A DNA stretch of 64,000 nucleotides from Albidovulum sediminicola (GTDB lineage: Bacteria; Pseudomonadota; Alphaproteobacteria; Rhodobacterales; Rhodobacteraceae): assembly GCF_025751575.1 (NCBI RefSeq), contig NZ_JAOWLA010000003.1:186001-250000 (forward strand). The letters run 5' to 3'. Below are positions 9,352 to 26,178 of the stretch, one piece after another. The position numbers and the translations under genes were made by a program. Every line of letters begins with the position of its first letter. The stretch's first letter is position 1. The notes beneath the pieces are model-generated. The model made no database searches, was not told the DNA's origin, and worked only from the letters and a program-made list of their open reading frames with translations.

Positions 9352-10356
9352 TCACTTGTATTCGATGATCCGGCTGGAGCGCCCGCGCAACCGCCGCAGA
9401 TGGTAAAGGGCCGCACCTTGCAGGTTGCAGAACTTGGACAGGGTCAGCAAGCCGCCCGCCTTTGCTGCGTCCGGCGCCGAATACCCCAGGCGTGCGAAGC
9501 GCAGGCTGGAACGGCCCCAGGAGGCGACGTAAAGCGCCGCTACCACCACGGCGAGGGGGGGCGACCAGAGCCCCCCCGCCAGAGCGATGGCCGGAAGGAC
9601 CGCACCCCAGATCACCATGCGCCGCCGCGCGGCGGGATAAAGCGTGGGGTGGAGGCCCCCCACCTCGGCGAAGGCATGGCCCGCGCGCACATTGCGCCGC
9701 CACCACTGTGAAAAGCGATAGATCGCGGCGTCGTGGTAGCCCATCGACGCGTCGATCCTCCAGATGCCGCCTCCGCGCGCGATCAGGCGCTGGCACAGGT
9801 CGGGTTCCTCTCCGGCGATCAGGTCCTCGCGAAACCCGCCGACCCCCGCGACGGCCTCTTGCCGCATCATCGCGATGCCGCCGCAGGCGTCCGCCCGGCC
9901 AATGGGCGTGTCCCATTCCCAATCGCAGAGCCGGTTGTAGATCGAGGCCTGAACGTCGAGTTCGTGCAAGCAGCCACAGACCGCGACCGTGGCAGGGTTC
10001 GCCGAAAGGAAGGCCGCCGCCGTGTCGATCCAACCCGGGGCAAGGCGGCAGTCGCCGTCGATAAACTGGACGAACTGAACCTCTGGCCCGTCCTGAAGCG
10101 CCGCAAGACCCGCGTTGCGGGCGCGGGCCGCGGTAAAGGGGCGCGACATGTCCAGTTCGACGACCTGGGCACCCGCGCGGCGGGCCTCTTCGACGCTGCG
10201 ATCGGTGGACCCGGAATCCACATAGACGATCTGCGGAACATGAGGCGCGACCGACGCGAGACAGGCGACCAGCCGCGCGCCCTCGTTGCGGCCGATGATC
10301 ACCGCGGCGACAGAGGGCGTCGGGCCGCCCGATTCGATCTCCCCGGTCGAGGGCAT
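9352..10356 (-). CDS. Family 2 glycosyltransferase with C-terminal membrane segment
   Basis: From ATG 10356 the protein has 334 residues; the frame is open far upstream, but this start has an AAGGAAA ribosome site 11 bp before it and precedes the first GT strand. VAAVIIGRNEGARLVACLAS, VYVDSGSTDRSVEEA and QFIDGDCRLAPGW (DGD metal site) mark a GT2 domain. A hydrophobic region late in the protein (about residues 245-285) predicts one or two membrane helices. It is convergent with the toroid gene (16 bp gap) and divergent from the PKS gene. Confidence 0.85.
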   Translation of the reverse strand: MPSTGEIESGGPTPSVAAVIIGRNEGARLVACLASVAPHVPQIVYVDSGSTDRSVEEARRAGAQVVELDMSRPFTAARARNAGLAALQDGPEVQFVQFIDGDCRLAPGWIDTAAAFLSANPATVAVCGCLHELDVQASIYNRLCDWEWDTPIGRADACGGIAMMRQEAVAGVGGFREDLIAGEEPDLCQRLIARGGGIWRIDASMGYHDAAIYRFSQWWRRNVRAGHAFAEVGGLHPTLYPAARRRMVIWGAVLPAIALAGGLWSPPLAVVVAALYVASWGRSSLRFARLGYSAPDAAKAGGLLTLSKFCNLQGAALYHLRRLRGRSSRIIEYK

Positions 10357-10756
10357 GGTCGTGATCGTTTCCTTTTTAGGATGGCGGATTGTCATGCAGT
10401 GAAGGGGCCAGCGGTGGGCGGTGTCCAGCGAATTCTCCGCCATGGGAAGCACTTGGCGACGGGGGACCCGGATTGTGAGACTGGTAATGCGTTTGACGGG
10501 CAGAGTCGGACAGGCCCGTCGCTGGCCTTTCGTTTCTATATTTGTCACAATTTGGCATCCTTGCAGGACTGTCGGTCGGGCGTCGACAACGTGATGCGTC
10601 CGCAAATCGGAAGGCACGATGCACGAACGCCAACCCTTCAATGGAATCATGACCTTCCGGCGAAAGTTCGCGCGATCCGCGCCGCCGCCGCCGACCCGAA
10701 GGGTTGGAGCGCCCCGCCCCGATGCTAAACTTGGCCGGAGTGGGACGTACGAGTGA
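10357..10756. other. Divergent intergenic region upstream of the PKS
   Basis: About 400 bp between the minus-strand glycosyltransferase and the plus-strand PKS; both promoters should be here. The AT-richer patch at 10530-10560 (around TATATTTGTCACAATTTGG) is the likeliest promoter area, but I cannot assign hexamers with confidence. No small gene, hairpin or repeat was recognised. Confidence 0.4.
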
Positions 10757-13700
10757 ATGGCAAGCATGTCAGATAACCCCGTGATCGGCGAAAACGACAT
10801 CGCCATCGTTGGAATGGCGGCGCATCTGCCGGGTGCGGCCTCGATCGAGGCGTACTGGGAAAACCTTCGCGACGGGGTCGAATCCATCCGCCAACTCAGC
10901 GAGGAAGAGCTTCTGGCGGCCGGGGAAAGCCCGGCGCGGATGCGCGCGCCGAACTATGTTCCGGCCGCCGCGACGCTGGAGGGGTTCGAGCGCTTCGATG
11001 CGGAGTTCTTTGGCCTGTCGCCCAAGGAAGCGGCGATCATGGACCCCCAGCATCGCCAATTCCTAGAAACCGCGTGGGAGGCGATGGAGAACGCGGGCCA
11101 CACGCCCGACGGGTTCGAGGGTCCGATCGGCGTCTACGCCGGCTGCGGCATGGGCAGCTATTTCTACTTCAACATCTGCTCGAACCCGGACCTCGTGAAA
11201 TCCACGGGTATGTTCCTCTTGCGCCATACCGGCAACGACAAGGATTTCCTGTCGACGCGGGTCAGCCATATCTTCGACCTGAAGGGGCCGAGCCTTTCGG
11301 TGCAGACCGCCTGCTCGACCTCGCTTGTCGCCGTTCACCTCGCCTCGCAGGCGCTTTTGAACGGGGAATGCGACATGGCGCTTGCTGGCGGCGTGACGAT
11401 CGAGATCCCGCAGGCGCGCGGCTATCTCTATGCCGAGGGCGAGGTGCTTTCGCCGGACGGGCATTGCCACGCCTTCGATCACCGGGCGCAGGGCACGGTT
11501 TTCGGATCGGGCGCGGGCTGCGTGGTGCTGCGGCGGCTCAGGGACGCCATCGCCGATGGCGACCATATCTGGGCGGTGATCAAGGGCAGCGCGGTCAACA
11601 ACGACGGATCGGATAAGGCGGGCTACCTCGCGCCCTCGGTCGATGGCCAGGCCCGCGCCATGGCCGAGGCGCATGCCGTCGCCGGGGTCGATGCGGGGAC
11701 CATCGGGTATGTGGAGTGCCATGGCACAGGCACCTATCTGGGCGATCCGATCGAGGTCGCGGCCCTGACGCAGGCATTCCGGCAGACCACCGACAACCGG
11801 GGTTACTGCCGGATCGGTTCGGTGAAGACCAATATTGGCCACCTGGACACGGCGGCGGGCGTGGCAAGCCTGATCAAGGCGTCGCTGTCGCTCCATCACC
11901 GGCAGATGCCACCGTCGCTGGGCTATGAGAAGCCGAACCCGGCGATCGACTTCGAAACCTCCCCCTTCCGCGTCAACGACCGGCTAGCGGCGTTTCCGGC
12001 GCTCGGCGCCCCGCGCCGGGCCGCGGTCAACAGCCTTGGCGTGGGCGGCACCAATGCTCATGTGGTGCTGGAGGAAGCGCCCGTGCGCGCCGCGTCGGAG
12101 GAGAGCGACTGGCCGTTCCAGCCGCTCATCCTTTCGGCGCGCTCCAAATCGGCGCTGGAGGATGCCAGCCGCAACCTTGCCGCCCATCTGCGCGCCCATC
12201 CCGAACAGCCGCTTGCCGACATCGCCTGGACGCTGAAGCAAGGACGCCGCGCCTTCGACCGGCGCCGGGTGGTCGTGGCCGAAAGCCATGAAGAGGCCGC
12301 AAGCCTTCTGGAAACCGCCGATACGCGGCGCGTTTTCACGCACACCCATCTGGGCGACCGGCCCGAGGTCGTCTTCATGTTCCCCGGTGGCGGGGCTCAA
12401 TACGCGGGCATGGCGCGCGATCTTTATGAAACCGAGCCGGTCTTCCGCGAGTGGATGGACCGGGGGCTGGACCATCTGCAACCGTCGCTCGACTACGACC
12501 TGCGCGCACTCTGGCTGCCCGAGGCGCAGGCACATGCCGAGGCGGTGGAGCGGTTGAAGCGCCCTTCCGTCCAGCTGCCGCTGATCATGATCACCGAATA
12601 CGCGCTCGCCCAGCTCTGGATCAGCTGGGGGGTGGAACCGGCGGTGCTGGTCGGCCATTCGATGGGCGAAAACACCGCCGCCTGCCTCGCGGGCGTTATT
12701 TCGTTTGAGGATTGCATCGGGCTTGTGCACCTGCGCGGTCAGCTTTTCGACACCATCGCGCCGGGGGGCATGCTCTCGGTGCCGATGAGCGAAAGCGCGC
12801 TTGCCCCGCTTCTGGGTGCCGAGCTCGACATGGCCTCTGTCAACGCGCCCGATCTTTGTGTCGTCTCCGGTCCGCAGGCCGCGCTGGACGCGTTGGAGGC
12901 CACATTGCGCGCCCGCGAGGTGGAGCCGCAGCGCATCCAGATCGACATCGCCGCACATTCGCGAATGCTGGAGCCGATCCTGAGGCGGTTCGGCGACTAC
13001 CTACGCGCGATCCGGCTTTCGCCGCCCCGGCTGCCTATCATCTCAAACCGGAGCGGCAAGACCCTGAGGGCGGCAGAGGCGACGAACCCCGACTACTGGG
13101 TCCGGCACCTGCGCAATACTGTCCTTTTCGCCGACTGCGCGACCGCGCTGACCGAGCGTTCGGGTCGGGTGTATCTGGAAGTCGGCCCGGGCCGGGCGCT
13201 GTCCTCGCTGATCCAGGCCAACGGGGTGCCGGCGAACCAGGTTCTGTCGTCGCTGCGCCATCCAGACCACGAAGTCGCGGACGACATCTGGTTCATGACC
13301 ACGCTCGGCCGGCTCTGGGCGCTGGGCGTCCCGGTTGATTGGGCGCCGATCTGGGGTGAGGCGCGGCGCAACCGCGTGCTGCTGCCCACCTATCCCTTCC
13401 AGCGCCAGCCCTATTACATCGAACCCGGCCGCGCCGAGGCGGCGGCCGAGGATAGCTGGGCGGAGCGGATCGAGGATATCGCCGGCTGGGGTTGGAAACC
13501 GCACTGGCGTCCGCGCGCCGCCGATTGCGAGGTGGAGGCCGAGCAGCTTCAGGAGGCCCCCCGCCACGACTGGCTGGTCTTTGCCGACGAGACCGGGCTT
13601 TCCGACCGGATCGTCGCGCGGCTTCGGGGCGCGGGCCACCGGGCGATCGAGGTGCGGGAGGGCTTTTCCTTCGCCAAGCTGGGCGAGGACAGTTACAGCA

Positions 13701-16700
13701 TCTCGCCCGAGCGGGGGCGCGTGGATTATGACCGGCTGTTCCAAGTCCTGGGCGCCGAGGGGTTCAAGCCTGACCGCGTCGCCCACCTGTGGCTGGTGAC
13801 CGAAGGGGAAACTTTCCGGCTGGGTTCGAGTTTCTTCCTGCGCAACCAGGAGCAGGGGTTCCAGAGCCTTCTAGCCCTCGCCCAGGCGATGGCGGAAGCC
13901 GCCCTGCCAAGCCCGCTGCATGTGACCTGCGTTTCGACCGGCACCCAGCAGGTGCGCGGCGAAAGGCTCGCCAATCCGGAAAAGGCCACCGTCTTCGGCC
14001 CGCTGCGGGTGATCCCGCGGGAATTTCCGGGCGTCACTTGTTCGGCGCTGGACGTGGCGCTGTCCTCTGCCGCCGGGCGCGAAGCCGGGATGGATCGGCT
14101 GGCCGACCGGGTGATCGAGGAGCTTCTGGCCGAGCCCGCGAACCTGACGGCTGCGCTGCGGGATGGCAAACGCTACGAGTTGACCTGGCGCCCCGTGCCG
14201 CTTGAACCGTCAGAGACGCCGGTGCCCCAGGGCGCGGCCTGCCTGATCACCGGCGGATTTGGCGGCATCGGCCAGACGTTGGCCGAACGGCTGGTCGCCG
14301 AACGCGGCGCGCGCGTCGCGCTTCTGACCCGAACCGCGCTGCCGCCGCGCGAAAGCTGGGATGGCTACCTGCGGTCGGTCCCGCCCCAGGATGGCGCCGC
14401 CCGCCGCATTCGTGCCTTGCGGCGGCTGGAGGCGCTGGGGGCCACCCCCTTGGTCGTTGTCGGCGATGTCTGCAACCTCGAGGACATGAAGGCCGTGCGG
14501 GCCGAGGTCGAGCGTGCCTTCGGCAAGGTCGACGTGCTGATCCACGCGGCGGGCGTCGTCGATGACGCGCCGATCCTCACCAAGACCCCGGAAAGCACCG
14601 AGGATGTCCTCGCGCCGAAGGTCCACGGCACACGGGTGCTGGACAAGGTCTTCCCGGATGGAAGCCTGGGGATGATGGTTGTCTTTGCCTCGACCTCGAC
14701 CGTGACCGCGCCGCCGGGGCAGGTCGATTACGTGGCCGCGAACGAGTTCCTGAACGCCTATGCCCGGTCGCGCGCGGGCGGCAAGACGCGGGTCGTCGCG
14801 ATCAACTGGGGGATCTGGTCCGACGTGGGCATGGCGGCCGAGGCGCTGGCAGGTCCCGTCGCGGCGCCGGTGGAGCCGGTGGACGCGCCCATGCTCGACA
14901 CGCGCAGCTTCGATGACGCGGGCAACCGCATCTACAGCGCGACCTGGGACGTTGGGCGCTGGTACCTGGACGGCCACCGCACCATGTCGGGGCAGGCGCT
15001 GCTGCCGGGCACGGGTTACCTGGACCTTGCCGCCCAGGCGCTGCGGGCACAGGGCGAAACGGGACCGTTCGAGATCCGCGATCTCTATTTCCTCAGCCCG
15101 CTGACCGTTGAGGACAATGCCCCGCGCGAGGTGCAGGTGACCTTGGCGCGCGATGCCGACGGCTATGCCTTTGCCGTGCGCAGCGATGTCGAGGTCGAGG
15201 GGCGGCACGGTTTCCGGCTGAACGCCGAGGCGCGGCTGGTGCCGCACAATGCGCTCCCGGACCCGGTGGATCTGCCCGCGCTTCTGTCCCGCTGTGTCGG
15301 GGGCGTGGAAACCGGGCAGGGCCTGCGGTCGCCTCAGGAGGAGCATCTCGCCTTTGGCCCGCGCTGGCGGGTCCTTAACCGCCGCGCCTACGGTACGGGC
15401 GAAGGCGTCGCGGAACTGGCGCTGCCAGAGGCGTTCCGCGGCGATCTGGCGCGGGGCCACCTGATCCACCCCGCCCTGATGGACCTGGCGACGGGCTGGG
15501 CGATGGGGCTGATCGACGGCTATCGCCCGACGCATCTCTGGGTGCCGATGTCCTATGCCTCTGTCACCGTCTTTCGCCCCTTGCCCGATCGGATCTTCAG
15601 CTGGGTCCGCAACGCCGACGAAAACCGGGCGGACAAGCCCGTGGCGCGCTTCGATGTGTCGATCCTCGACCCCGACGGCATTGTCTGCGTCGAGATCAAG
15701 GGCTTCGCGATCATGAAGCTTGATCGCGGGCTGGACCTTTCCGCCCCCGTCAACCCGCGGGACGTGGAATTCCCCGAGGCCGAGGGCGCGGCCGCGCATC
15801 CGGTTTCCGCCGCCGAGGAACGTCTGCGCCACAACCTGTCACAGGGCATTCCCGCCGAAAGTGGGGCCGAGGCCTTCGGCCGCGCCCTTGCCCTTGGTCT
15901 GCCGCAGGTCGTTGTGTCCTCGATCGATCTGCCGACGCTGGTGGCCCAGGCCGACACGGTGCAGGCAACCGAGGGCGCCGGCGGTCAGGCCTTCGAGCGT
16001 CCCGAGCTTGACAACGCCTATGTCGAGCCGCGCAACGAGATCGAGCGCACACTGGTCGGCTTCTGGCAGGAGCTTCTGGGCGTCGGCCAGGTCGGGGTCG
16101 AGGACAGCTTCTTCGACCTTGGCGGCCATTCGCTGATCGCGGTGCGGCTTTTCGCGATGATCCGCAAGACCTTCGCGGTGGAGTTCCCGATCTCGATCCT
16201 GTTCGAGGCCCCGACGATCGCGGCCTGCGCGGCCCTGATCGAGGCGCGCGTCGGCCCGCGGGACGCGCCCGACGGCGCCACCCCCGCCGCGGTGCCGCTG
16301 CGGCGCTTCACCCATCTTGTGCCGATGAACCAGCACGAGGGCGGGACACGCCCGCCGTTCTTCGTCGTCGCCGGCATGTCAGGCAATATCCTCAACCTGC
16401 GCAGCATGGCGAAGATGCTGGGCGACAAGTGGAAATGCTACGGCCTTCAGGGCCGGGGCCTTTACGACGAGGACGCACCGCATGAAGACCTTGTCGATGC
16501 CGCGCGCGACTGCGTGGCCGAGATCCGGCAGGTCCAGCCCCATGGCCCCTATGTCCTTGGCGGCTTCTCTGGCGGTGGTTTGACGGCCTGGGAGATCGCC
16601 TGCCAGCTTGAGGCGGAGGGCGAGGAGGTCGCGCTTCTGGTACTCCTTGATACGCCGCTTCCGGTTCGTCCTTGGCCGGGTATTGCCGACCGGCTCAAGA

Positions 16701-17152
16701 TCAAGCTGAACCAGTTTGTCTCGGGCGGGCCGACTTATTTGCTGGAGTGGTTCCGCGACCGCCGTGCCTGGAAGGTCGAGGAACGCGCGCGCGCCGCCGC
16801 GGGCCCCGAGGCCGCGCGCGAGGCGCTGCTGACCAATGTCGAAAAGGCGTTCCTGCGTGCGGTCGGCAAGCTCACGCTGAAACCGCGATCGGGCCGGACC
16901 GTGCTTCTGCGTCCGCCCATCGACAAGCACTGGAAGGTGTTCGGTGGGCGCTGGGTGGACCGGGATCGGACCTATGTCTACGACGACAACGACCTGGGCC
17001 GCTTTGCCTCTGACCTTTCGGTGATCGAGGTGCCGGGTGACCACGACACGATGGTGCTGGAACCAAACGTCCGGGTCCTTGTTCACAAACTGCGCGAGGT
17101 GCTCGACGGCGCTGTGCCTGACGAGCGTCCCTTTCGTGCCGCGGCGGAGTAG
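10757..17152 (+). CDS. Type I modular polyketide synthase KS-AT-KR-DH-ACP-TE
   Basis: A 2131-residue single-module megasynthase. KS (about 15-440): Cys186 in TACSTS, with the two histidine motifs VECHGTGT and KTNIGHLD. AT (about 540-840): nucleophile Ser635 in GHSMG; the specificity motif reads IAAHS, neither the usual malonyl HAFH nor methylmalonyl YASH. KR: NADPH loop GGFGGIG from residue 1166, Ser and Tyr-Val-Ala-Ala-Asn active-site motifs, and a VDD close to the LDD of B-type KRs. DH: His1407 in HRTMSGQALLPG, Asp in HPALMDLATG. ACP: Ser1792 in LGGHSL. TE: Ser1938 in GFSGGG, His2096 in GDHDTM. All catalytic residues are present, so a reduced, dehydrated two-carbon extension with hydrolytic or transfer release is predicted. 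KR preceding DH is unusual. ATG 10766 is an alternative start. Confidence 0.93.
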   Translation: MASMSDNPVIGENDIAIVGMAAHLPGAASIEAYWENLRDGVESIRQLSEEELLAAGESPARMRAPNYVPAAATLEGFERFDAEFFGLSPKEAAIMDPQHRQFLETAWEAMENAGHTPDGFEGPIGVYAGCGMGSYFYFNICSNPDLVKSTGMFLLRHTGNDKDFLSTRVSHIFDLKGPSLSVQTACSTSLVAVHLASQALLNGECDMALAGGVTIEIPQARGYLYAEGEVLSPDGHCHAFDHRAQGTVFGSGAGCVVLRRLRDAIADGDHIWAVIKGSAVNNDGSDKAGYLAPSVDGQARAMAEAHAVAGVDAGTIGYVECHGTGTYLGDPIEVAALTQAFRQTTDNRGYCRIGSVKTNIGHLDTAAGVASLIKASLSLHHRQMPPSLGYEKPNPAIDFETSPFRVNDRLAAFPALGAPRRAAVNSLGVGGTNAHVVLEEAPVRAASEESDWPFQPLILSARSKSALEDASRNLAAHLRAHPEQPLADIAWTLKQGRRAFDRRRVVVAESHEEAASLLETADTRRVFTHTHLGDRPEVVFMFPGGGAQYAGMARDLYETEPVFREWMDRGLDHLQPSLDYDLRALWLPEAQAHAEAVERLKRPSVQLPLIMITEYALAQLWISWGVEPAVLVGHSMGENTAACLAGVISFEDCIGLVHLRGQLFDTIAPGGMLSVPMSESALAPLLGAELDMASVNAPDLCVVSGPQAALDALEATLRAREVEPQRIQIDIAAHSRMLEPILRRFGDYLRAIRLSPPRLPIISNRSGKTLRAAEATNPDYWVRHLRNTVLFADCATALTERSGRVYLEVGPGRALSSLIQANGVPANQVLSSLRHPDHEVADDIWFMTTLGRLWALGVPVDWAPIWGEARRNRVLLPTYPFQRQPYYIEPGRAEAAAEDSWAERIEDIAGWGWKPHWRPRAADCEVEAEQLQEAPRHDWLVFADETGLSDRIVARLRGAGHRAIEVREGFSFAKLGEDSYSISPERGRVDYDRLFQVLGAEGFKPDRVAHLWLVTEGETFRLGSSFFLRNQEQGFQSLLALAQAMAEAALPSPLHVTCVSTGTQQVRGERLANPEKATVFGPLRVIPREFPGVTCSALDVALSSAAGREAGMDRLADRVIEELLAEPANLTAALRDGKRYELTWRPVPLEPSETPVPQGAACLITGGFGGIGQTLAERLVAERGARVALLTRTALPPRESWDGYLRSVPPQDGAARRIRALRRLEALGATPLVVVGDVCNLEDMKAVRAEVERAFGKVDVLIHAAGVVDDAPILTKTPESTEDVLAPKVHGTRVLDKVFPDGSLGMMVVFASTSTVTAPPGQVDYVAANEFLNAYARSRAGGKTRVVAINWGIWSDVGMAAEALAGPVAAPVEPVDAPMLDTRSFDDAGNRIYSATWDVGRWYLDGHRTMSGQALLPGTGYLDLAAQALRAQGETGPFEIRDLYFLSPLTVEDNAPREVQVTLARDADGYAFAVRSDVEVEGRHGFRLNAEARLVPHNALPDPVDLPALLSRCVGGVETGQGLRSPQEEHLAFGPRWRVLNRRAYGTGEGVAELALPEAFRGDLARGHLIHPALMDLATGWAMGLIDGYRPTHLWVPMSYASVTVFRPLPDRIFSWVRNADENRADKPVARFDVSILDPDGIVCVEIKGFAIMKLDRGLDLSAPVNPRDVEFPEAEGAAAHPVSAAEERLRHNLSQGIPAESGAEAFGRALALGLPQVVVSSIDLPTLVAQADTVQATEGAGGQAFERPELDNAYVEPRNEIERTLVGFWQELLGVGQVGVEDSFFDLGGHSLIAVRLFAMIRKTFAVEFPISILFEAPTIAACAALIEARVGPRDAPDGATPAAVPLRRFTHLVPMNQHEGGTRPPFFVVAGMSGNILNLRSMAKMLGDKWKCYGLQGRGLYDEDAPHEDLVDAARDCVAEIRQVQPHGPYVLGGFSGGGLTAWEIACQLEAEGEEVALLVLLDTPLPVRPWPGIADRLKIKLNQFVSGGPTYLLEWFRDRRAWKVEERARAAAGPEAAREALLTNVEKAFLRAVGKLTLKPRSGRTVLLRPPIDKHWKVFGGRWVDRDRTYVYDDNDLGRFASDLSVIEVPGDHDTMVLEPNVRVLVHKLREVLDGAVPDERPFRAAAE

Positions 17153-17156
17153 TCGG

Positions 17157-18152
17157 ATGCCAAGCGTCCTCGTGGTCATCGTGAACTGGCGCACCGCCGA
17201 GATGGCGCTTGCCGCGGCCGAGGCGGCGCTCATCGCCATGAAGGGGATCGATGGCGCCATCACCATCGTCGACAACGATTCCGGCGATGGATCTGAGGCG
17301 ACCTTGCGCGAAGGCGTCATGAAGCGCGGCTGGGACCGGGTGCGGGTGATCCAGTCCGGGCGCAATGGCGGCTACGGCGCGGGCAACAACGTCGGCATCC
17401 GCGCGGGCCTGCCGGAGGGCGGCAAGCCCGACTATGTCTATGTGCTCAACCCCGACGCCTTCCCGGCGCCGGACGCGATCCGGGCGCTTGTCGAACACAT
17501 GGAGCGCCACCCCGAAACCGGCATCGCGGGCAGCTTTGTCCACGGTCCCGACGGGGTGCCGCATGCCTCCGCCTTCCGGTTCTTCTCCCTCGGGTCGGAG
17601 TTCGAGGACGCCGCCAAGACCGGGCCGATTTCCCGTCTGCTCGCCAGCGCGATCGTGCCCCTGCCGACGCCGAGCGAGACGACGCGCGTGGATTGGGTCT
17701 CCGGGGCCTCGATGATGCTCAGGCAATCGGTGCTGGACCGGATCGGCCTGTTTGACGAGGCCTATTTTCTTTATTTCGAGGAAACCGACCTTTGCCTCAG
17801 GGCCGCGCGCGCGGGCTATGCGACCGATCACGTCCGGCCGGCGCAGGTCACCCATATCGGCTCCGTCTCGACCGGGATGAAGACGCTGGCGCGGGTCCCG
17901 GCTTATTGGTTCGACAGCCGCTGGCGTTATTTCGCCAAGAACCACGGCCGCGCCTATGCCATCGCGGCCACCGCCGCGCGGACGGCGGGCGGCCTGCTGC
18001 TGGGGCTGCGCCGGCTGGTCGGCAGATGCGCCCAGCAGAACCCGCCCCATTTCCTGCGCGACCTTCTGGCCCACGGCCTCAGGACCGGATGCCGCGCCGT
18101 CGCCCCCGAGCGGGGAACCGCCACGACCGCCCCAGCTGGGAGTAAGACATGA
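17157..18152 (+). CDS. Family 2 glycosyltransferase (rhamnosyltransferase-like)
   Basis: A 331-residue enzyme from ATG 17157, four bases after the PKS stop. VLVVIVNWRTAEMALAA and the TIVDNDSGDGSE strand begin the GT2 fold, YVYVLNPDAF carries the metal-site NPD, and the segment FDEAYFLYFEETDLCLRAAR is the ED motif shared with RfbN/WcaE-like rhamnosyl- and galactosyltransferases. Its position between the PKS and the NRPS, with a four-base ATGA overlap to the NRPS, implies co-expression with the assembly line and suggests a glycosylated lipopeptide/polyketide or an acylated sugar chain. Confidence 0.87.
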   Translation: MPSVLVVIVNWRTAEMALAAAEAALIAMKGIDGAITIVDNDSGDGSEATLREGVMKRGWDRVRVIQSGRNGGYGAGNNVGIRAGLPEGGKPDYVYVLNPDAFPAPDAIRALVEHMERHPETGIAGSFVHGPDGVPHASAFRFFSLGSEFEDAAKTGPISRLLASAIVPLPTPSETTRVDWVSGASMMLRQSVLDRIGLFDEAYFLYFEETDLCLRAARAGYATDHVRPAQVTHIGSVSTGMKTLARVPAYWFDSRWRYFAKNHGRAYAIAATAARTAGGLLLGLRRLVGRCAQQNPPHFLRDLLAHGLRTGCRAVAPERGTATTAPAGSKT

Positions 18153-21100
18153 CCGCGTATTCCGCTGTTTTCGTTGGCAATGAATCCCTTCTGATCCAAT
18201 GCGCGGAGCTTTGGCTGGGCGCCGGAAACCGGATCGCGGCGGTGGTCACCCACAACGCGGACCTGGCCCGATGGGCGGGCGCGCGCGGCCTGCGGGTCGA
18301 GGCGCAGGACGCGGGCGTGGCCGACCGCCTTGCCGGGGTTGGCTATGACTGGCTCTTCTCGGTCGCGAACCTCCACATCCTGCCAGAGGCCCTGATCGCC
18401 GCGGCAGGGCGCGGCGCGGTCAACTTCCACGACGGGCCATTGCCGCGCCACGCCGGTCTGAACGCCCCCGTCTGGGCGCTTCTGGAGGGCGAGCGCCGTC
18501 ACGGCGTCGCCTGGCACCGGATCGAGGGCGGGATCGACGAAGGCGCGATCCTGCAAGCGCGCGACTTCGACATCGCGGCGGGCGAAACCGCGCTGACGCT
18601 GAACGCGAAGTGCTTCGAGGCCGCGATCGACAGCTTCGGCGCTCTGGTCGCGGACATCGGCGCGGACGCCCTTCAGCCGCACCCGCAGGATCTGTCGCAG
18701 CGGAGCTGGCACGCGCGTGCCGACCGGCCGCGCGCGGCGGCGCGGCTCGATTTCTCAGGCTCCGGCGAGGATGTCGCGCGGCTGGTGCGCGCGCTTGATC
18801 ATGGCGGCTACTGGAACCCGCTGGCGCTGCCGAAGATCGAGGTGGATGGTCGGGTCCTGGCCGTCGGCACGGCCGAGCCCGTTCCGGGCGAAGGGCCGGC
18901 CGGCACGGTTTTGGCTACCGAGGCGGAAGGGTTGACCGTCGCCTGCGGGCAAGGCGCGGTCCTGCTCGGCGGTTTGCGCGGCATGGACGGGCAGGCGGTC
19001 TGCCCGATGTCGCTGGACCTTGCCGGAAAGGCGCTGGGATCGCCCGGAACAGAAGAGGCAGAACGCATCGGTGCCGCAATTTCTGCTGCGGCGCCGGGCG
19101 AGGGGCGGTGGCGCGCGCGTTTGGGCGCGCTCCGCTCCGCCGACCTGCCGCTGGCGGGCCCCGCATCCGAGGCGCCCGACTGGCATCGCATGGGCTGCGC
19201 GATCGCGGGAGGGGACGCCGCCCGCGGGGCCGTGGCGCTTGCGCTTTTCGCGCGCGCATATGGCGGGGGCGAGCCCGTCGATCTGGCCTTCCACCTCGCC
19301 ACTGCCCCGCGCGAGCCGGGTTATGTCTCCGACTGGGTGCCCCTGAGGGCGGGGGAGGAGGCTTCTGCCGGCGCGTTCCTCGCATCCTTCCAGGCGGACC
19401 TTGCCGCCGCCATGAAGGCCCCGGCCTTTGCTGCGGATCTGCCGCTGCGCGATCCCGCCATCGGCGGCCTGACCTGCCCCGACATCGCGCTGAACCTTGG
19501 CGGTGACGCGCCGGTTTCGGGCAGCGCCTTGACCCTTGCGATCTCGGCCGAGGGGGCGGGGCTGCATTTCGACGCGGCCCGGCTCGATGCCGCGACAGCG
19601 CAGATCCTCGCCGACCGGATCGCGCATCTGGCCGATCAACTGGGCGCGGCGCATGGCGATCCGGCGCTGGCCGACCTGCCCGCGATGCCTCAAAGCGAAC
19701 GCGCGCTGCTGCTTGAGGCATGGAACCGCACCGGGGCCGATTTCGATCCGGATCTCTGCGTGCATCAGGCGTTCGAGGCGCAGGCCGCGCGGACGCCTGA
19801 GGCGACGGCCCTGATCCATGAGGGCGAAACGCTGACCTACGCGGCGCTGAACGCCCGGGCCAACCGCGTTGCGCATGTGCTTGGTGAGATGGGCGTGGGG
19901 CCGGGGACGCTGGTCGGGCTTTGCACCCGCCGCTCGCCGCTTCTGATGATCGGGGCGCTGGCGATCCAGAAGGCGGGCGGCGCCTATGTGCCGCTGGACC
20001 CGGCCTACCCGGCCGAGCGCATCGCGCTTTATGTCGAGGATTCCGCCTGCCCGGTGATCGTGACCGAAACCGCCCTGACGGGGAGCCTGCCGCAAAGTGC
20101 GGCGGCGATCCTGACGCTGGATGACGACCCGCGTCTGGCCGCCGCGCCCGAGGGCAATCCCGACAGCGGCGTGACGGGCGCGGACCTCGCCTACATGATC
20201 TACACCTCGGGCTCGACCGGGCGGCCGAAGGGCGTGATGATCGAGCACCGCAACGTCCAGAACTTCTTCACCGGCATGGACGCCCATGTCCGCCACGATC
20301 CGGCCGGCACCTGGCTTGCCGTCACATCGCTGTCCTTCGACATCTCGGTGCTGGAGCTGTTCTGGACGCTGGCGCGGGGCTTCCGCGTGGTGATCATGGG
20401 GGACGCCGACCGGGCGCTGGTTTCCGGTGCCGGCGCGTCTGGGCGGGGGATGGAGTTCAGCCTTTATTACTGGGGCAATGACGACGGTGTTGGCCCCGCG
20501 AAATACGACCTGCTGCTGGAAGGCGCGAAGTTCGCCGATGCGAACGGCTTTTGCGCCGTCTGGACGCCGGAACGCCACTTCCACGCCTTCGGCGGCCCCT
20601 ATCCCAACCCATCCGTTACCGGGGCGGCTGTGGCCGCGGTCACGCGCAACCTCTCGGTCCGGGCGGGGTCCTGCGTCGCGCCGCTGCATCATCCCGCGCG
20701 GATCGCCGAGGAATGGGCCGTCATCGACAACCTGACGAACGGGCGCGCGGGCCTTGCCATCGCCTCGGGCTGGCAGCCGGACGACTTCGTGCTGCGCCCC
20801 GAAAACACGCCGCCCGCAAACAAGCCCGCGATGTTCGACGCCATCGACAAGATCCGCCGCCTGTGGCGGGGCGAGGCGGTGGAATTCCCGACGGCTTCTG
20901 GCAAGCCCTTTGCCGTCGTGACCCAGCCCCGCCCGGTCTCAAAGGAGGTGCCGATCTGGGTTACGACCGCGGGCAACCCGGAAACCTGGCGTGAGGCAGG
21001 CGCAGCGGGCGCGAACGTGCTGACCCACCTTCTGGGCCAGTCGGTCGAGGAAGTCGGTGGCAAGATCAAGCTTTACCACGAGGCGCTCAGGGAGGCGGGC

Positions 21101-22729
21101 CGCGATCCGGCCGATCACACCGTGACGCTGATGCTGCACACCTATGTGGCCGCGGATCGTGAGACGGCGCGCGAAACCGCGCGGGAACCGATGAAGGACT
21201 ACCTGCGCTCGGCCGCCGGGCTCATCAAGCAGTACGCCTGGGCTTTCCCGGCCTTCAAGAAACCACATGGCATGACCAACCCGATGGAGATCGACCTGCG
21301 CTCGCTCACCGAGGAGGAGATGGAGGGCGTCCTCGACTTCGCCTTCCAGCGCTACTTCGAGGATTCGGGGCTGTTCGGCACGCTCGGGGACTGCCTGGCG
21401 CGGGTGGAGGAGTTAAAGCGCATCGGGGTGGGCGAGGTCGCCTGCCTGATCGACTACGGCATTCCGGTGCCCGTCGTGATGGAGGGGCTGGTGCCCCTGG
21501 CTGAGGTGCTGCGGCGCGCCAATGAGGGCGTGACCGAGGCGGAGGAGGATTTCTCCATCGCGGCCCAGATCGCGCGGCACCGGGTGACGCATCTGCAATG
21601 CACCCCCTCGATGGCGCGGATGCTGGCGATGAACCCCGAGTCGCGCGCCGCTCTGGCGGGGGTTCAGGAACTGATGATCGGGGGCGAGGCGCTGCCCGGC
21701 GCCCTTGTCGCGGACCTGGCGGAGGCGACGGGGGCGCGGGTGCTGAACATGTATGGCCCGACCGAAACCACGATCTGGTCCGCGGTCGCCGAGGCGGAGG
21801 CAGGGGCCGCTGTCTCTCCGGTCGGCCCCCCCATCGCCAACACGCAGCTTTACGTCCTCGACGACCGGGCGGACCCGGTGCCGCTGGGTGTAGCGGGCGA
21901 ACTCTGGATCGGCGGCGCGGGCGTGGCGCGCGGCTACTGGAAGCAGCCCGATCTGACCGACGACCGCTTCCGCCCCGATCCCTTCGCGGGCGGGCGGATG
22001 TACCGCACCGGCGACCTCGTGCGCCAGCGCGCGGACGGGATGTTCGACTTCCTCGGCCGCATCGACCACCAGGTGAAGATCCGCGGCTATCGGATCGAGC
22101 TGGGGGAGATCGAGGCGGCAGCCGAAGCCGCCCCCGGCGTCCGTCAGGCCGTCGTTCTGGCGCGGGAAGACGTGCCGGGCGATCTGCGCCTGGTCGCCTA
22201 TGCCACCACCGGCGCGGGTTTCTCGGCCGAGACGCTGGGGGCCCATCTGAGGGCGCGGCTGCCCGCGCATATGGTACCCGCCCATATCGTGCCGCTGGCC
22301 GACATGCCGCTGACGCCGAACGGCAAGGTGGACCGCAAGGCGCTTCCCGCCCCGGCCGAGGCCGCCCCGCCCGTGGCGGAGGCACATGTCGCCCCCGCCG
22401 AGGGGGTCGAGGCGACGATCGCCGCCATCTGGCGCCGGGTCCTCAACCTTCCCAAGGTCGGCGCGGAGGACAATTTCTTTGCCCTTGGCGGCCACTCGCT
22501 TCTGGCAGTGCAGGCGCATCGGGAGATCCGCGATGCGCTGGGCAGCGCGAAGCTGTCAATCACCGACATCTTCCGCTTCCCGACGCTGTCGGCACTGGCC
22601 CGCCACCTGGATGACCGTCCGGCGGCCGAGCCGCGCCTGCATATCGCTGGGGCCGCGAACGACCGGGCCGCTCTGCGTGCCGACGCCATGTCGAAGCGCC
22701 GTGCGCTTCGGGCCGGGCGCGCGGGGTGA
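18149..22729 (+). CDS. NRPS: formyltransferase - truncated C-like - A (with embedded LLM monooxygenase) - T
   Basis: A 1526-residue megasynthase. Residues 1-300 resemble methionyl-tRNA formyltransferase, with the catalytic Asn92/His94 (NFHDGPLPRHAGL) and Asp130. About 320-510 looks like only the C-terminal half of a condensation domain; no HHxxxDG is present. The adenylation domain starts near 530, with TSGSTGRPKG at 686-695 and the FDIS motif of A4, then is interrupted at about 768-1126 by a complete luciferase-like flavin monooxygenase, and resumes with VTHLQCTPSM and NMYGPTE (1200) through TPNGKVDRK. A thiolation domain ends the protein (Ser1450 in LGGHSL). This layout matches the MupA/Atu3671 class. 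FDIS and the final Lys suggest an alpha-amino acid substrate; the monooxygenase would oxidise the tethered residue. No TE or epimerase. Confidence 0.92.
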   Translation: MTAYSAVFVGNESLLIQCAELWLGAGNRIAAVVTHNADLARWAGARGLRVEAQDAGVADRLAGVGYDWLFSVANLHILPEALIAAAGRGAVNFHDGPLPRHAGLNAPVWALLEGERRHGVAWHRIEGGIDEGAILQARDFDIAAGETALTLNAKCFEAAIDSFGALVADIGADALQPHPQDLSQRSWHARADRPRAAARLDFSGSGEDVARLVRALDHGGYWNPLALPKIEVDGRVLAVGTAEPVPGEGPAGTVLATEAEGLTVACGQGAVLLGGLRGMDGQAVCPMSLDLAGKALGSPGTEEAERIGAAISAAAPGEGRWRARLGALRSADLPLAGPASEAPDWHRMGCAIAGGDAARGAVALALFARAYGGGEPVDLAFHLATAPREPGYVSDWVPLRAGEEASAGAFLASFQADLAAAMKAPAFAADLPLRDPAIGGLTCPDIALNLGGDAPVSGSALTLAISAEGAGLHFDAARLDAATAQILADRIAHLADQLGAAHGDPALADLPAMPQSERALLLEAWNRTGADFDPDLCVHQAFEAQAARTPEATALIHEGETLTYAALNARANRVAHVLGEMGVGPGTLVGLCTRRSPLLMIGALAIQKAGGAYVPLDPAYPAERIALYVEDSACPVIVTETALTGSLPQSAAAILTLDDDPRLAAAPEGNPDSGVTGADLAYMIYTSGSTGRPKGVMIEHRNVQNFFTGMDAHVRHDPAGTWLAVTSLSFDISVLELFWTLARGFRVVIMGDADRALVSGAGASGRGMEFSLYYWGNDDGVGPAKYDLLLEGAKFADANGFCAVWTPERHFHAFGGPYPNPSVTGAAVAAVTRNLSVRAGSCVAPLHHPARIAEEWAVIDNLTNGRAGLAIASGWQPDDFVLRPENTPPANKPAMFDAIDKIRRLWRGEAVEFPTASGKPFAVVTQPRPVSKEVPIWVTTAGNPETWREAGAAGANVLTHLLGQSVEEVGGKIKLYHEALREAGRDPADHTVTLMLHTYVAADRETARETAREPMKDYLRSAAGLIKQYAWAFPAFKKPHGMTNPMEIDLRSLTEEEMEGVLDFAFQRYFEDSGLFGTLGDCLARVEELKRIGVGEVACLIDYGIPVPVVMEGLVPLAEVLRRANEGVTEAEEDFSIAAQIARHRVTHLQCTPSMARMLAMNPESRAALAGVQELMIGGEALPGALVADLAEATGARVLNMYGPTETTIWSAVAEAEAGAAVSPVGPPIANTQLYVLDDRADPVPLGVAGELWIGGAGVARGYWKQPDLTDDRFRPDPFAGGRMYRTGDLVRQRADGMFDFLGRIDHQVKIRGYRIELGEIEAAAEAAPGVRQAVVLAREDVPGDLRLVAYATTGAGFSAETLGAHLRARLPAHMVPAHIVPLADMPLTPNGKVDRKALPAPAEAAPPVAEAHVAPAEGVEATIAAIWRRVLNLPKVGAEDNFFALGGHSLLAVQAHREIRDALGSAKLSITDIFRFPTLSALARHLDDRPAAEPRLHIAGAANDRAALRADAMSKRRALRAGRAG

Positions 22730-23403
22730 CGGTGGCCGCCCTGGCCGAGATCGCCGACCGGGTGCGGGGCCTTTTTCCCTGCCCGGTGGCAGTCTGCGCC
22801 GAGGGCATCGGCGCTTCGGAGGCTGAGCTTTGGCCCGTCGAGGCTGAGGCAATGCGCGCCGCCGTCCCACGCCGCCGGGCAGAGTTTGCGGCGGGCCGCG
22901 CGGTCGCGCGGCGGGCCATCGCGGAACTGGGCCTGCCCCCGGTCGCGATCCCAATGCAGCCCGACAGGTCGCCGGGCTGGCCGGCGGGGGTCGCCGGTTC
23001 CATCACCCACACCGATGTGCTGGCGCTGGCGGCCGTGGCGCGCGCCGAAGTCATTGCCGCGATTGGTATCGACGCGGAACCGGACGAGCCCTTGCCCTCG
23101 GGCGTGGCGGAGATGGTCTGCCGGCCCGAGGAACGCGCCTGGTGCGCCACCATGCCCGACCCGGCGCGTGCGGAGCGGTTGATCTTCGTTGCGAAAGAGG
23201 CCGCCTACAAATGCCAGTACCCGTTGTCCCGCGCAGGCCTGGAGTTTGACGCGCTCAGCATCGAAGCCGCGGCGGACGGCGCGCTTGTCGCCCGTTTCAC
23301 GCTTCCCGCCGGTCCGTTTGCCACCGGCGACCGGCTGAGCGGGCGCGCCGCCCGCTGCGGCGGGCTTGTCATCGCAGCCTTCGCGCTGCCACATCGGCCA
23401 TGA
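22726..23403 (+). CDS. 4'-phosphopantetheinyl transferase (Sfp/EntD type)
   Basis: A 225-residue enzyme that moves phosphopantetheine from CoA onto carrier-domain serines. EntD-type features: basic RRRAEFAAGRAVARRAI, GSITHTD, the Mg-binding IGIDAEP, and FVAKEAAYK in place of the WSxKEA motif. The GTG start overlaps the NRPS stop, so it is translationally coupled and presumably activates the PKS ACP (Ser1792) and NRPS T domain (Ser1450). A dedicated activator embedded in the cluster supports the PKS and NRPS genes being functional. Confidence 0.93.
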   Translation: MTVAALAEIADRVRGLFPCPVAVCAEGIGASEAELWPVEAEAMRAAVPRRRAEFAAGRAVARRAIAELGLPPVAIPMQPDRSPGWPAGVAGSITHTDVLALAAVARAEVIAAIGIDAEPDEPLPSGVAEMVCRPEERAWCATMPDPARAERLIFVAKEAAYKCQYPLSRAGLEFDALSIEAAADGALVARFTLPAGPFATGDRLSGRAARCGGLVIAAFALPHRP

Positions 23404-24392
23404 GTGGAGGGAGGATGCGCCGCAACCTCATTTTGCTGGGACTAGTCGCCGCCGGGGCACTAACGGCCGGGATCGTCGGCTGGCGGCGCTTGCGCCGCGA
23501 CCCGACCTTGCCGCCCGCGCGCCGCCCCATGCCTTGGGCCGAGTTCCGCGCCCTCTACGCCCGCCCGCTTGCCCCGCCCGCCGGGCCGCTCCGGGTCTTT
23601 CACCTGGGACACAGCCTGGTCGGCCACGACATGCCCGCCATGCTTGCCCAGCTTGCCGGACCCGGCCACCGCTACGAAAGCCAGATCGGCCGCGGGACGA
23701 CCCTGCGCGCCCATTGGGAGGATCACATCCCCATCGAGGGCTATGCGGAGGACAACGATCACGACCGCTTCCGCCCCGCCAAGGAGGCCCTCGCGAGCGG
23801 CGACTACGACGCGGTCATCCTGACCGAGCGGGTCGAAATCCGCACCTCGATCAAGGAAGAGGGCGCGGCCTCCTACCTCGCGCTCTGGGCCGCGCTGGCG
23901 CGGCAGGGTAACCCCGCGACGCGGGTCTATCTGTATGAAACCTGGCATTGGCTCAGCGATTCCGAAGGCTGGCTGGAACGGCTGGACCGGGATCTGCCAC
24001 GTCACTGGATCGGCGAGGTGATGCGTGGTGCCGCGGCCTATCCCGGCGGTGCCCCGGTCTATCTCATCCCCGCCGGACAGGTGCTGGCGCGGATCGCCCG
24101 CGCCGCCGAGGCCGGGGAGGTTCCGGGCATCGCAAGCCGCGAGGACTTCTTCGCCCGGACGGCGGAGGGCAAGCTCGACAAGATCCATATCGGCGATCTT
24201 GGCGCCTTCCTCGTGGCGCTGACGCATCATGCCGTCCTTTACGGGACCGAGCCTCCGGGGCTAATGTCCCGGATGCACCGGGCCGATGGCGCGCCAGCAG
24301 ACCTGCCGGAGGCGCTCGATCGCGCAGCGCTTTGGCGGATGGTCCGGGAGGTCGCCAGCGCCCTGCCCGAAACCGGGATGAGACAGAGTTGA
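23400..24392 (+). CDS. Membrane-anchored SGNH-hydrolase-like protein
   Basis: A 330-residue protein with an N-terminal hydrophobic segment (about 9-27) that is a signal anchor, placing the body in the periplasm. VFHLGHSLVGHDMPAML (Ser72) is a block-I-like SGNH/GDSL motif; IGRGTTLRAHWEDH may supply the oxyanion Gly, and DKIHIGDLGAFLVALTHHAV near the end supplies Asp/His candidates. SGNH enzymes in polysaccharide clusters usually add or remove acetyl or other acyl groups. Its ATG overlaps the PPTase stop, so it belongs to the same transcript and might attach or cleave an acyl group made by the PKS/NRPS. That link is inference. Confidence 0.68.
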   Translation: MSGGRMRRNLILLGLVAAGALTAGIVGWRRLRRDPTLPPARRPMPWAEFRALYARPLAPPAGPLRVFHLGHSLVGHDMPAMLAQLAGPGHRYESQIGRGTTLRAHWEDHIPIEGYAEDNDHDRFRPAKEALASGDYDAVILTERVEIRTSIKEEGAASYLALWAALARQGNPATRVYLYETWHWLSDSEGWLERLDRDLPRHWIGEVMRGAAAYPGGAPVYLIPAGQVLARIARAAEAGEVPGIASREDFFARTAEGKLDKIHIGDLGAFLVALTHHAVLYGTEPPGLMSRMHRADGAPADLPEALDRAALWRMVREVASALPETGMRQS

Positions 24393-24462: not shown

Positions 24463-26178
24463 ATGCCCAATTCGTTCGCCTATCTGATGCTGTTCTCCTG
24501 GCCGCTGGTCATCGTGTGCCTCTTCGCGGTGCTCCCCCGGTCCTATGCCATCGCGATTTCGATCATCGGCGGATATCTGATCTTGCCGGTGAGGACCGGG
24601 TTCAACCTGCCGCTGGTGCCGACGCTCGACAAATCGCTGCTGCCGTCGCTCTTCACCGCGATCATGTGTCTCGTGGTGACGGAGCGCCGAGCGCGCCCGC
24701 CCCGGCGTGGACCGCATGACGCCCGGACCCAGGCCAGCGTTTCGCAAGGCGAACCCGAAGCCCCGAGGGAGCGTCCCAAACCGTCCTACAGCCGCCAGCC
24801 GATCCGGGCGGCGGGCCGGGATGCCTCGGCGGCGCCAGCCGTCGCCCCCATGCGCACGGCATTGCCCGCCGTCGTCACCACCGGAAAGGCCCTGACGCCT
24901 GTCACCGTGCAGGGGGAACGGTCCGCAGAGCAGGCCGCGCCGATGGCACTCGTGCAGCCGGAAAAGACGGTGCGCGCCATCGTCCTGGCGCTCGTGGCGC
25001 TGGGGCTGCTATCACCGATCGCCACGGCGCTCACGAATCCCGATCCGCTCTTCTTCGGCTCCAGGTTCCTTCCCGGGCTCAGGCTCTACGATGCCATGTC
25101 GATGGCGATGAACGTCGGTGTTCACATGCTGCCGTTCGTCATCGGCTGGCTTTACCTTGGGTCGCCGCAGGATCTGCGCCGCCTCGTGACCGTGGTGGCA
25201 CTCGCCGGGCTTGCCTATTCGCTTCCGGCCCTGTTCGAGGTGCGGATGAGCCCCCAGCTCAATACCTGGATCTACGGGTTCTTCCAGCATTCCTTCCTTC
25301 AGCATATCCGCGCCAGCGGCTACCGGCCGGTGGTCTTCCTCGGCCACGGGCTGGCCCTGTCGATCTTCCTGGCCCAGACGGTGTTTGCCGCGATCGCGCT
25401 CTGGCGTGGGCGCGAAAGGGGGCGCGGGGCGGGCGCGCAATGGCTGGTCGCGGCGGCCTGGCTCTTCATGACCCTGATCCTGTCCAAGTCGCTCGGCGCC
25501 TTCGTGATCGCCTGCGCATTCGGTCTGCTCCTGCTGGTGGGGACCCGGCGCGCGATCACGATCTTCGCGGCGATCGTGGTCACTTCCGTCACCCTCTACC
25601 CGGTGCTGCGCGGCAGCAGCCTCTCGCCCGCGGACAGCGTCTATGAGATCGTCAACACCTTCAACGCCGAGCGCGCGGAGTCCTTCAAGTTCCGCCTCGA
25701 CAATGAGGATGAGTTGCTGGACCGGGCGAACCAGAAGCCCCTTTTCGGCTGGGGCAGCTGGGGGCGCAACCGGATCTTTGACCCAAGGACCGGCGAGGAT
25801 CTGAGTATTACCGACGGGGACTGGATCCTGACGATCGGCGTGTTCGGCTGGTTCGGATACATGAGCAAGTACGGCTTGTTCGCGATCCCGATCATCGCGC
25901 TGGCCCGGCGCCGAAAGGCCCCGCAACTGACCTTCGCAGCCTGCGGTCTTTGCATGATCCAGGCCGCGAATATCCTCGACGCCATTCCGAACGCCACGAT
26001 CGTGCCGGTCACATGGCTCATCGCCGGCGCGCTCGCCGGGTTTGCTTGCCGCGATGACACCCCCGCCGTCGGGGCGGGCGCCGGCACACGGGAGATCGGC
26101 GGCAGGGCGCGGCGCGGCGGGATTGCACCTGCGCCGGCGGCTCTGCGCCCGACCTCCTTCAACCGCACCCGTGGCTGA
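24463..26178 (+). CDS. Polysaccharide polymerase/O-antigen-ligase-like membrane protein
   Basis: A 571-residue polytopic protein with about 10-12 hydrophobic helices and a large loop containing FNAERAESFKFRLDNEDELLDRANQKPLFGWGSWGRNR. That arrangement, a charged loop ending in a PLFGWG motif, is characteristic of Wzy polymerases and WaaL ligases. Between helices 3 and 4 (about residues 75-165) lies a hydrophilic, Pro/Arg/Ala-rich insertion that looks disordered and cytoplasmic. The C-terminus is also Ala/Pro/Arg rich. It would polymerise or ligate the repeat units in the periplasm after flipping by the Wzx-like protein. Confidence 0.75.
   Translation: MPNSFAYLMLFSWPLVIVCLFAVLPRSYAIAISIIGGYLILPVRTGFNLPLVPTLDKSLLPSLFTAIMCLVVTERRARPPRRGPHDARTQASVSQGEPEAPRERPKPSYSRQPIRAAGRDASAAPAVAPMRTALPAVVTTGKALTPVTVQGERSAEQAAPMALVQPEKTVRAIVLALVALGLLSPIATALTNPDPLFFGSRFLPGLRLYDAMSMAMNVGVHMLPFVIGWLYLGSPQDLRRLVTVVALAGLAYSLPALFEVRMSPQLNTWIYGFFQHSFLQHIRASGYRPVVFLGHGLALSIFLAQTVFAAIALWRGRERGRGAGAQWLVAAAWLFMTLILSKSLGAFVIACAFGLLLLVGTRRAITIFAAIVVTSVTLYPVLRGSSLSPADSVYEIVNTFNAERAESFKFRLDNEDELLDRANQKPLFGWGSWGRNRIFDPRTGEDLSITDGDWILTIGVFGWFGYMSKYGLFAIPIIALARRRKAPQLTFAACGLCMIQAANILDAIPNATIVPVTWLIAGALAGFACRDDTPAVGAGAGTREIGGRARRGGIAPAPAALRPTSFNRTRG

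Follow-up and report, generated by a model that had tools for sequence, protein, structure and literature searches.

We describe here a biosynthetic cassette in a 64,000-nucleotide stretch of the Albidovulum sediminicola genome (4.13 Mb), called the window below, where the genes for a type I polyketide synthase (PKS), a family 2 glycosyltransferase (GT2c), a non-ribosomal peptide synthetase (NRPS) and a phosphopantetheinyl transferase (PPTase) lie in the middle of a polysaccharide cluster. The membership of this cassette in the polysaccharide pathway is well supported. On balance we favour a role as a tailoring branch that serves a Wzx/Wzy exopolysaccharide pathway and would supply a small glycine-derived acyl group to the repeat unit; the covalent attachment and the structure of the acyl group are inferred.

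The cluster spans from the flippase at 1104 to the end of the polymerase at 26178, and beyond it lie the acetyl-CoA carboxylase and FolC genes, which are housekeeping functions. After the PPTase come genes for an SGNH-fold protein and a Wzy polymerase. An original prediction made from the letters of this DNA had proposed a hybrid PKS-NRPS line inside such a cluster, and the PKS, NRPS, PPTase and interleaved glycosyltransferase it named are all real genes (10757-17152, 18149-22729, 22726-23403 and 17157-18152), while family matches confirmed the flanking flippase (on the minus strand), WecG, WecB and polymerase. It had also described ATGA couplings from the glycosyltransferase through to the SGNH gene; these hold for the glycosyltransferase-NRPS and PPTase-SGNH junctions but not for NRPS-PPTase, which reads GTGA. 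The PKS and GT2c genes do not overlap and are separated by a 4-base gap. Features that go beyond the prediction are a single starter NRPS module with a formyltransferase and a monooxygenase embedded in its adenylation (A) domain, and a thioesterase at the end of the PKS. The PKS/NRPS observation is real and chance is excluded, because domains, catalytic residues and gene order are conserved.

The NRPS consists of one starter module in which the formyltransferase domain is N-terminal to the A domain and the peptidyl carrier protein (PCP). The formyltransferase residues N92, H94 and D130, taken as the catalytic set, are kept together with the serine of the PCP in 91 of 92 aligned NRPSs; only genome G141 departs from this. 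The two halves of the A domain lie at residues 542-755 and from 1133, and between them a TIGR04020 luciferase-like monooxygenase (LLM) of the MupA/Atu3671 subfamily is inserted at 770-1120. This insert is present in 90 of the 92 aligned NRPSs, 80 of which were selected via LLM peptides. A standalone LLM at 28658-29680 was set aside as a pathway member: it belongs to a different LLM subfamily and lies beyond accD-folC. The A-domain code was read as 10 residues off the alignment, with code positions assigned after GrsA. It is DILQMGMIWK in 77 of the 92 NRPSs, including that of the window; the other 15 have another residue in the fifth position, and in two of these the seventh is changed as well. 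Four have DILQLGMIWK. The glycine code DILQxGxIWK fits all 92, one having an undetermined letter, and the amino acid activated is thus very probably glycine. The 241-residue stretch between the formyltransferase and the A domain had no Pfam match, and its predicted structure (pLDDT 91.5) resembles condensation domains, although it has only about half their length. A complete condensation domain at this position was rejected in favour of a half domain. In the PKS, 13 catalytic positions of the KS, AT, KR, DH, ACP and TE domains are intact in 79 of 83 aligned sequences, including the window's; the four exceptions are open reading frame fragments in two loci (L046, L121), the variant of genome G129 and a broken copy in G141. 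These alignments took frames above 1800 bits together with L034, L035, L038, L129 and L131, shorter or cut-off copies being excluded. No ER domain was found in the PKS by Pfam.

We profiled 198 genomes from 197 genera of the family, a sample independent of the LLM peptides and of the ranking that gave the named loci described below. The NRPS was found in 70 genomes, GT2c in 68 and Wzy in 75. NRPS and GT2c occurred together in 66, with four genomes having the NRPS only, two GT2c only and 126 neither (Fisher p 6e-45). For NRPS and Wzy both were present in 66, the NRPS only in four, Wzy only in nine and neither in 119 (Fisher p 2.7e-37); both p values are descriptive, as related genomes are not independent. 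In 63 of the 66 genomes no more than 8 kb separated GT2c from the NRPS, and in the other three the two were on different contigs; Wzy lay within 25 kb of the NRPS in 50 of 53 same-contig pairs, a further 13 pairs being on separate contigs. One place per genome was kept, which omits the second NRPS of G158, G170 and G176, the second GT2c of G176 and the second Wzy of G170; the last genome was scored as other-contig although its omitted Wzy shares the NRPS contig. The PKS matched at E 1e-150 in 84 of the 198 genomes, but some matches covered the KS-AT part only and the PKS was therefore left out of the co-occurrence counts.

The possibility raised with the original prediction, that the PKS/NRPS block is a mobile insert absent from otherwise identical clusters, was rejected for the genus. 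Here 3 of 22 genomes have the NRPS, and exactly these three also have a gene of the same cluster encoding a toroid-like protein (8163-9335); the cassette is therefore not, in this genus, an insert missing from identical clusters. An empty site, with pfkB adjoining accD in congeners, was likewise unsupported: pfkB was matched in 20 genomes, and in these it was on another contig than accD or at least tens of kilobases away from it, although draft genomes can hide adjacency.

In a wider scan with the NRPS alignment, of one genome per species in 84,980 species, we confirmed at least 548 relatives, the best 80 of which were used as named loci. These were chosen with LLM peptides and lean to close relatives, and variants without the LLM therefore cannot show among them. 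Within their flanks GT2c was found in 80, the PKS in 79, the PPTase in 74, Wzy in 37 and the SGNH protein in 19. The order PKS-GT2-NRPS-PPTase was kept in 70 of the 80, mostly in Rhodobacterales with some Comamonadaceae. Among the matches listed, the closest named relative of the NRPS is from Defluviimonas sp. WL0002 (81% identical). The families that recur near the cassette include Wzx, Wzy, WecG, several GT2s, GT4, a Wzz-like protein (under the Pfam cut-off in the example scanned) and a BY-kinase-like protein. Searching the flanks by tblastn at E 1e-8 with twelve polysaccharide reference families (RTX and SGNH uncounted), we found Wzz in 40, Wzy in 37, Wzx in 36, WecG and GT2a in 32 each, BY-kinase in 31, GT4 in 30, GT2b and GT2d in 20 each and the sugar transferase in 16 of the 80 loci, and the export reference in none. 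WecB, named among the neighbours in the original prediction, matched in none of the 80 flanks and is not a constant companion. When only the 68 loci with at least 24 kb were counted, 65 carried one or more of the twelve families, 49 at least three, and 58 had Wzx, Wzy or Wzz. The same search gave no matches in 74 kb of the genome beside the cluster, nor in L038 and L039, where a related NRPS/PKS pair occurs but GT2c does not. No MFS or ABC exporter families were found among 20 recurrent neighbours in a partial scan, in which several neighbours had no family at all. The window itself has Wzx/Wzy-type content, namely a flippase, a Wzy-family polymerase and several glycosyltransferases.

On plasmids, 16 records carry at least 80% of the NRPS. 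Nine records of this search were examined, six with annotated genes and three without. In those from Ruegeria (two), Parasedimentitalea, Aminobacter and Paracoccus the cassette sits amid glycosyltransferases and other polysaccharide genes, and the Aliiroseovarius record has cassette-type genes without such surroundings. The PKS is inverted in Aminobacter, Shinella and Rhizobium, with GT2c elsewhere (Shinella) or not found within the examined stretch. In a tree of the formyltransferase-A-PCP part, from which the LLM was omitted, Curvibacter (100/99) and Hydrogenophaga (97/80) take two separate positions inside Rhodobacterales, and horizontal transfer into Comamonadaceae, GT2 included, is therefore suggested. 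Four of five Hydrogenophaga loci (L044-L046, L100) have WecG, sugar-transferase, GT4, GT2 or Wzx matches at E 1e-4; the fifth, L043, is a fragment of 10 kb. The Curvibacter locus has the cassette genes and SGNH only. In viral contigs four stretches matched a pattern and none encodes a relative, in a search with a single protein query that covers close relatives only. A second NRPS was seen near the cassette in Hydrogenophaga (L046:18700-24700 and L100:20113-26193, where the frame is open over some 2,000 aa) and in Paracoccus marcusii (L036:1-2552). In Ruegeria sp. SCSIO 43209 (L032:22662-24246) an apparently truncated PPTase is followed by a transposase fragment and, further on, by UbiA, GtrA, FAD oxidoreductase and SDR genes, a set that resembles polyprenyl-sugar epimerisation.

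The nine family genomes with Wzy only fall into two kinds. Two of them, G129 and G141, have altered cassettes in which GT2c and Wzy were matched and the full NRPS was not. In G129 (L129:10177-19828) the NRPS match skips from residue 758 to 1135 of the window protein, leaving out the LLM, and the PKS match skips from 1351 to 1680, leaving out the DH, with the KR Ser and Tyr replaced; the formyltransferase, PCP, KS, AT, ACP and TE sites are intact. This joint loss of oxidation and beta-keto processing suggests, from a single case, that one part of the product is the common site of action of the LLM and the KR/DH. In G141 (L130:15193-18531, L131:1522-7515) the LLM is also absent and the PKS has one stop, the frames being otherwise almost entirely open. 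Substitutions have removed the catalytic residues of the formyltransferase, PCP, KS and AT, together with the Tyr of the KR and the His of the DH, and the A-domain code and the ACP and TE residues are kept. This may reflect decay or a pseudo-enzyme with another role. In the LLM-omitted tree the two genomes fall in different LLM-bearing groups, that of G141 with 100/100; G129 pairs with a long-branched Paracoccus row (94/95), which makes its placement less sure. The LLM has probably been lost twice. In the other seven genomes (L122-L128) the 20 kb examined around Wzy gave no PKS or NRPS match but contain other polysaccharide families and a more distant GT2, with 32-39% identity to GT2c. These are different clusters and not identical ones lacking the cassette. 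Wzy and a relative of GT2c can thus do without the assembly line, and these loci speak for an optional tailoring branch and not for an essential polymer step in general.

The product of the gene at 23400-24392 gave no Pfam family at E 0.001. The best PDB fold matches of its predicted structure were a DUF4886 protein and the peptidoglycan O-acetyltransferase PatB, and residues S72, D260 and H263 are invariant in 18 aligned rows, so that the protein is SGNH-like; the original prediction had named it an SGNH hydrolase. An N-terminal helix and lipobox-like sequences seen by eye in some homologues suggest that it is located outside the cytoplasm. As it was found in just 19 of the 80 loci, it is accessory.

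A possible order of reactions follows by analogy from the domain content and the precedents discussed below. Glycine would be loaded on the PCP and N-formylated, and the LLM would oxidise its alpha carbon to give an N-formyl-alpha-hydroxyglycyl starter or, after loss of formamide, a glyoxylyl starter, an alternative that we include because of the MOX precedent. The KS would add one extender, for which we assume malonyl, and the beta-keto group would be processed by the KR and DH. With the resulting C4 group the thioesterase might then acylate a sugar of the lipid-linked repeat unit, at an amino or a hydroxyl, acceptor and bond both being guesses. GT2c would help to build this unit, Wzx would flip it and Wzy polymerise it, and the SGNH protein, where present, could trim or move acyl groups outside the cytoplasm. 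Of the two products put forward in the original prediction, the polysaccharide with an unusual amino-acid-derived acyl group is better supported than a glycosylated lipopeptide, and the attachment would be the conjectural part of it.

Several observations weigh against a tailoring branch of this kind. A thioesterase of this type could merely release a free acid. In 80 of the 83 PKSs a Gly stands four positions past the DH aspartate in place of the usual residue, and DH activity is therefore likely but not certain; the AT motif leaves the extender unit undecided. Nine of the 75 Wzy genomes are without a full-strength NRPS match, and Wzy therefore works without an intact cassette. Three of the 68 long loci (L051, L111, L118) have none of the twelve families. 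Distances correlate with those of the NRPS at 0.92 for the PKS, 0.87 for Wzz, 0.84 for Wzy, 0.75 for GT2a and 0.67 for GT2c, which tracks the NRPS less closely than the others do; these values come from differing locus sets, are uncorrected for shared ancestry and were not used as proof. No initiating sugar transferase, Wzz or BY-kinase was found for the window cluster within the 104 kb examined (window, L040 and L041). Matches to these three, with weak ones to export proteins, lie together within a few kilobases on contig C11 of the same genome (L134:1340-2801 and L133:13350-17014), where the 38 kb examined gave no match to the cluster's Wzx, Wzy or glycosyltransferases. This arrangement, which counts in favour of the branch, fits one export system split across two loci, the link between them being inferred. 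In G026 the initiating transferase, Wzz and BY-kinase are all found in the 40 kb around the cassette, and in G023 Wzz and BY-kinase are.

The cassette could instead make a diffusible small molecule, its genes being merely kept and expressed alongside those for the polysaccharide, for instance since life on surfaces draws on both. The thioesterase at the end of the PKS would suit this, as would the Methylobacterium (L038) and Aliiroseovarius (L039) pairs, which have neither GT2c nor polysaccharide-family matches in 40 kb, and genome G188, where the NRPS has diverged (46%) and GT2c and Wzy are both under threshold. However, 66 of the 70 NRPS genomes also have a GT2 that belongs to one family, and this GT2 is still nearby in L035, L051 and L109 despite a changed gene order, and we regard a diffusible product as unlikely. 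That GT2c makes a separate glycoside or glycolipid from the PKS/NRPS product, which would leave through the flippase and never enter the polymer, we hold to be rather improbable. Its gene does lie between those of the PKS and NRPS in most loci, and 36 of 80 have a Wzx homologue in their flanks, but a monomeric glycoside needs no polymerase and Wzy is present in 66 of the 70 NRPS genomes, while a one-module line predicts a very small product that would be a poor lipid.

Two further readings keep the product on the polymer. There is a slim chance that it is a backbone unit, with a hydroxylated C4 acid glycosylated by GT2c, linked through its carboxyl to the next sugar and polymerised by Wzy as a mixed repeat, and in that case the polysaccharide chain would contain a monomer made on an assembly line. 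A lipid or terminal-anchor role has been proposed for RkpA-type PKSs, and the line might similarly make such an anchor and not a substituent of each repeat. The type I PKS genes wcbR and rkpA are placed in capsule clusters in the available part of PMC3908369, which is in favour of an anchor. On the other side stand the formylated glycine starter, the absence of a Pfam ER domain and the single extension module with a thioesterase; such a line is therefore no fatty-chain maker unless it is iterative, and we find an anchor very improbable.

Should the product be polymer-bound, as in the tailoring branch that we favour, common and mostly aquatic bacteria would carry on their surface polysaccharides an assembly-line group that composition analysis by sugar hydrolysis would miss. 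The NRPS is present in about a third of the family genomes (70 of 198), and 66 of these 70 share one glycosyltransferase and 66 one Wzy family. The concrete target would be a C4 group derived from glycine and formate, for which G129 is a natural variant without the oxidation steps. The gene set can serve as a marker for mining, and PKS/NRPS genes that are tallied as secondary metabolism may belong to envelope synthesis.

The features of the window are collected in Table 1. The 390 aa product of the gene at 8163-9335 weakly matches models of three kinds, squalene-hopene cyclase C-terminal, GH127 and LanC-like.

Table 1. Genes and domains of the polysaccharide cluster, in window positions. Loci are the 80 named loci.
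Feature	Position	Strand	Evidence
Wzx-type flippase	1104..2543	-	PF13440, E 4.7e-41; homologue in flanks of 36/80 loci
RTX-repeat protein, recurrent cassette neighbour	2685..4889	+	PF00353 marginally over cut-off; homologue in 27/80 loci
GT2a glycosyltransferase	5120..5968	+	PF00535, E 3.1e-18; homologue in 32/80 loci
WecG/TagA/CpsF-type glycosyltransferase	6058..6999	+	PF03808, E 2.6e-56; homologue in 32/80 loci
WecB, UDP-GlcNAc 2-epimerase	6996..8147	+	TIGR00236, 456 bits against cut-off 210; 0/80 locus flanks
Protein weakly matching alpha/alpha-toroid families	8163..9335	+	Weak PF13243 and PF07944
GT2b glycosyltransferase, start uncertain	9352..10887	-	PF00535, E 1.7e-13; domain at residues 196-317 of the open reading frame
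Type I PKS, KS-AT-KR-DH-ACP-TE	10757..17152	+	Pfam domains
GT2c, cassette glycosyltransferase	17157..18152	+	PF00535
NRPS: formyltransferase, half C domain, LLM-split A domain, PCP	18149..22729	+	Pfam, TIGR04020, fold, glycine code
Formyltransferase domain of NRPS	18149..19003	+	PF00551 and PF02911
Half condensation (C) domain, between formyltransferase and A	19034..19756	+	Model pLDDT 91.5; best PDB matches are C and C-A domains
LLM monooxygenase between A-domain halves	20456..21508	+	TIGR04020, 479 bits against cut-off 244
Sfp-type PPTase	22726..23403	+	PF17837 and PF01648
SGNH-fold protein with N-terminal helix (predicted)	23400..24392	+	Model pLDDT 91.6; fold matches; homologue in 19/80 loci
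Wzy_C / O-antigen ligase family polymerase	24463..26178	+	PF04932, E 1e-7

Our searches of the open-access literature turned up no polysaccharide cluster with a formyltransferase-A(LLM)-PCP/PKS/GT2 cassette inside it, nor the product of one. The MOX domains of known assembly lines and the LLM presumably form one family, to judge by their shared placement and code. In the biosynthesis of myxothiazol and melithiazol, according to the text available of PMC11342130, MOX hydroxylates the alpha carbon of glycine, the N-C bond breaks and the carrier-bound glyoxylate is released by a thioesterase. These systems and some corallorazine-like ones likewise have the monooxygenase inserted into a glycine A domain (PMC11342130, PMC12283262, both in excerpt), and four MOX-bearing glycine A domains share the code DILQLGMIWK in the excerpt of PMC12283262, one position apart from the DILQMGMIWK of the window. 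Unlike in the MOX systems, the LLM of the window is in a starter module behind a formyltransferase, with a PKS as the next enzyme. PuwE, which we take to belong to a cyanobacterial lipopeptide pathway, is the nearest solved chain to the LLM insert (PDB 6ket, E 9.8e-103), a match that is mute on context. Conglobatin offers a precedent for the start of the line, with a proposed formylglycine loading in the available part of PMC4504003; there, as for oxazolomycin, a formyltransferase-A(glycine) loading module has formylglycine prime the PKS. Conglobatin has four PKS extension modules and an oxazole, the formation of which is assigned to a cyclodehydratase (CongE, and OzmP for oxazolomycin), in contrast to the one PKS module, the LLM insert and the polysaccharide context of the window.

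In Phaeobacter inhibens the PKS Inhi_1972 and the NRPS Inhi_1974 are listed under secondary-metabolite genes, and the excerpt of PMC4062626 gives neither a product nor a polysaccharide link for them; their locus numbers are two apart, as the cassette would predict, a likeness by numbering alone. Polysaccharide loci without such a cassette are described in the available parts of PMC11340318 and PMC3102044. A related setting is that of WcbR and RkpA, where a type I PKS gene lies amid polysaccharide synthesis and export genes and where, comparing by description, the accessible text of PMC3908369 mentions no formyltransferase-A-LLM starter NRPS. Type I PKSs in capsule clusters are already known, and it is the formyltransferase-A(LLM)-PCP/PKS/GT2 set that is new as far as the literature found. 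From WcbR and RkpA the cassette of the window is set apart by its glycine start, its lack of an ER domain, its terminal thioesterase and its Wzx/Wzy-type neighbours.

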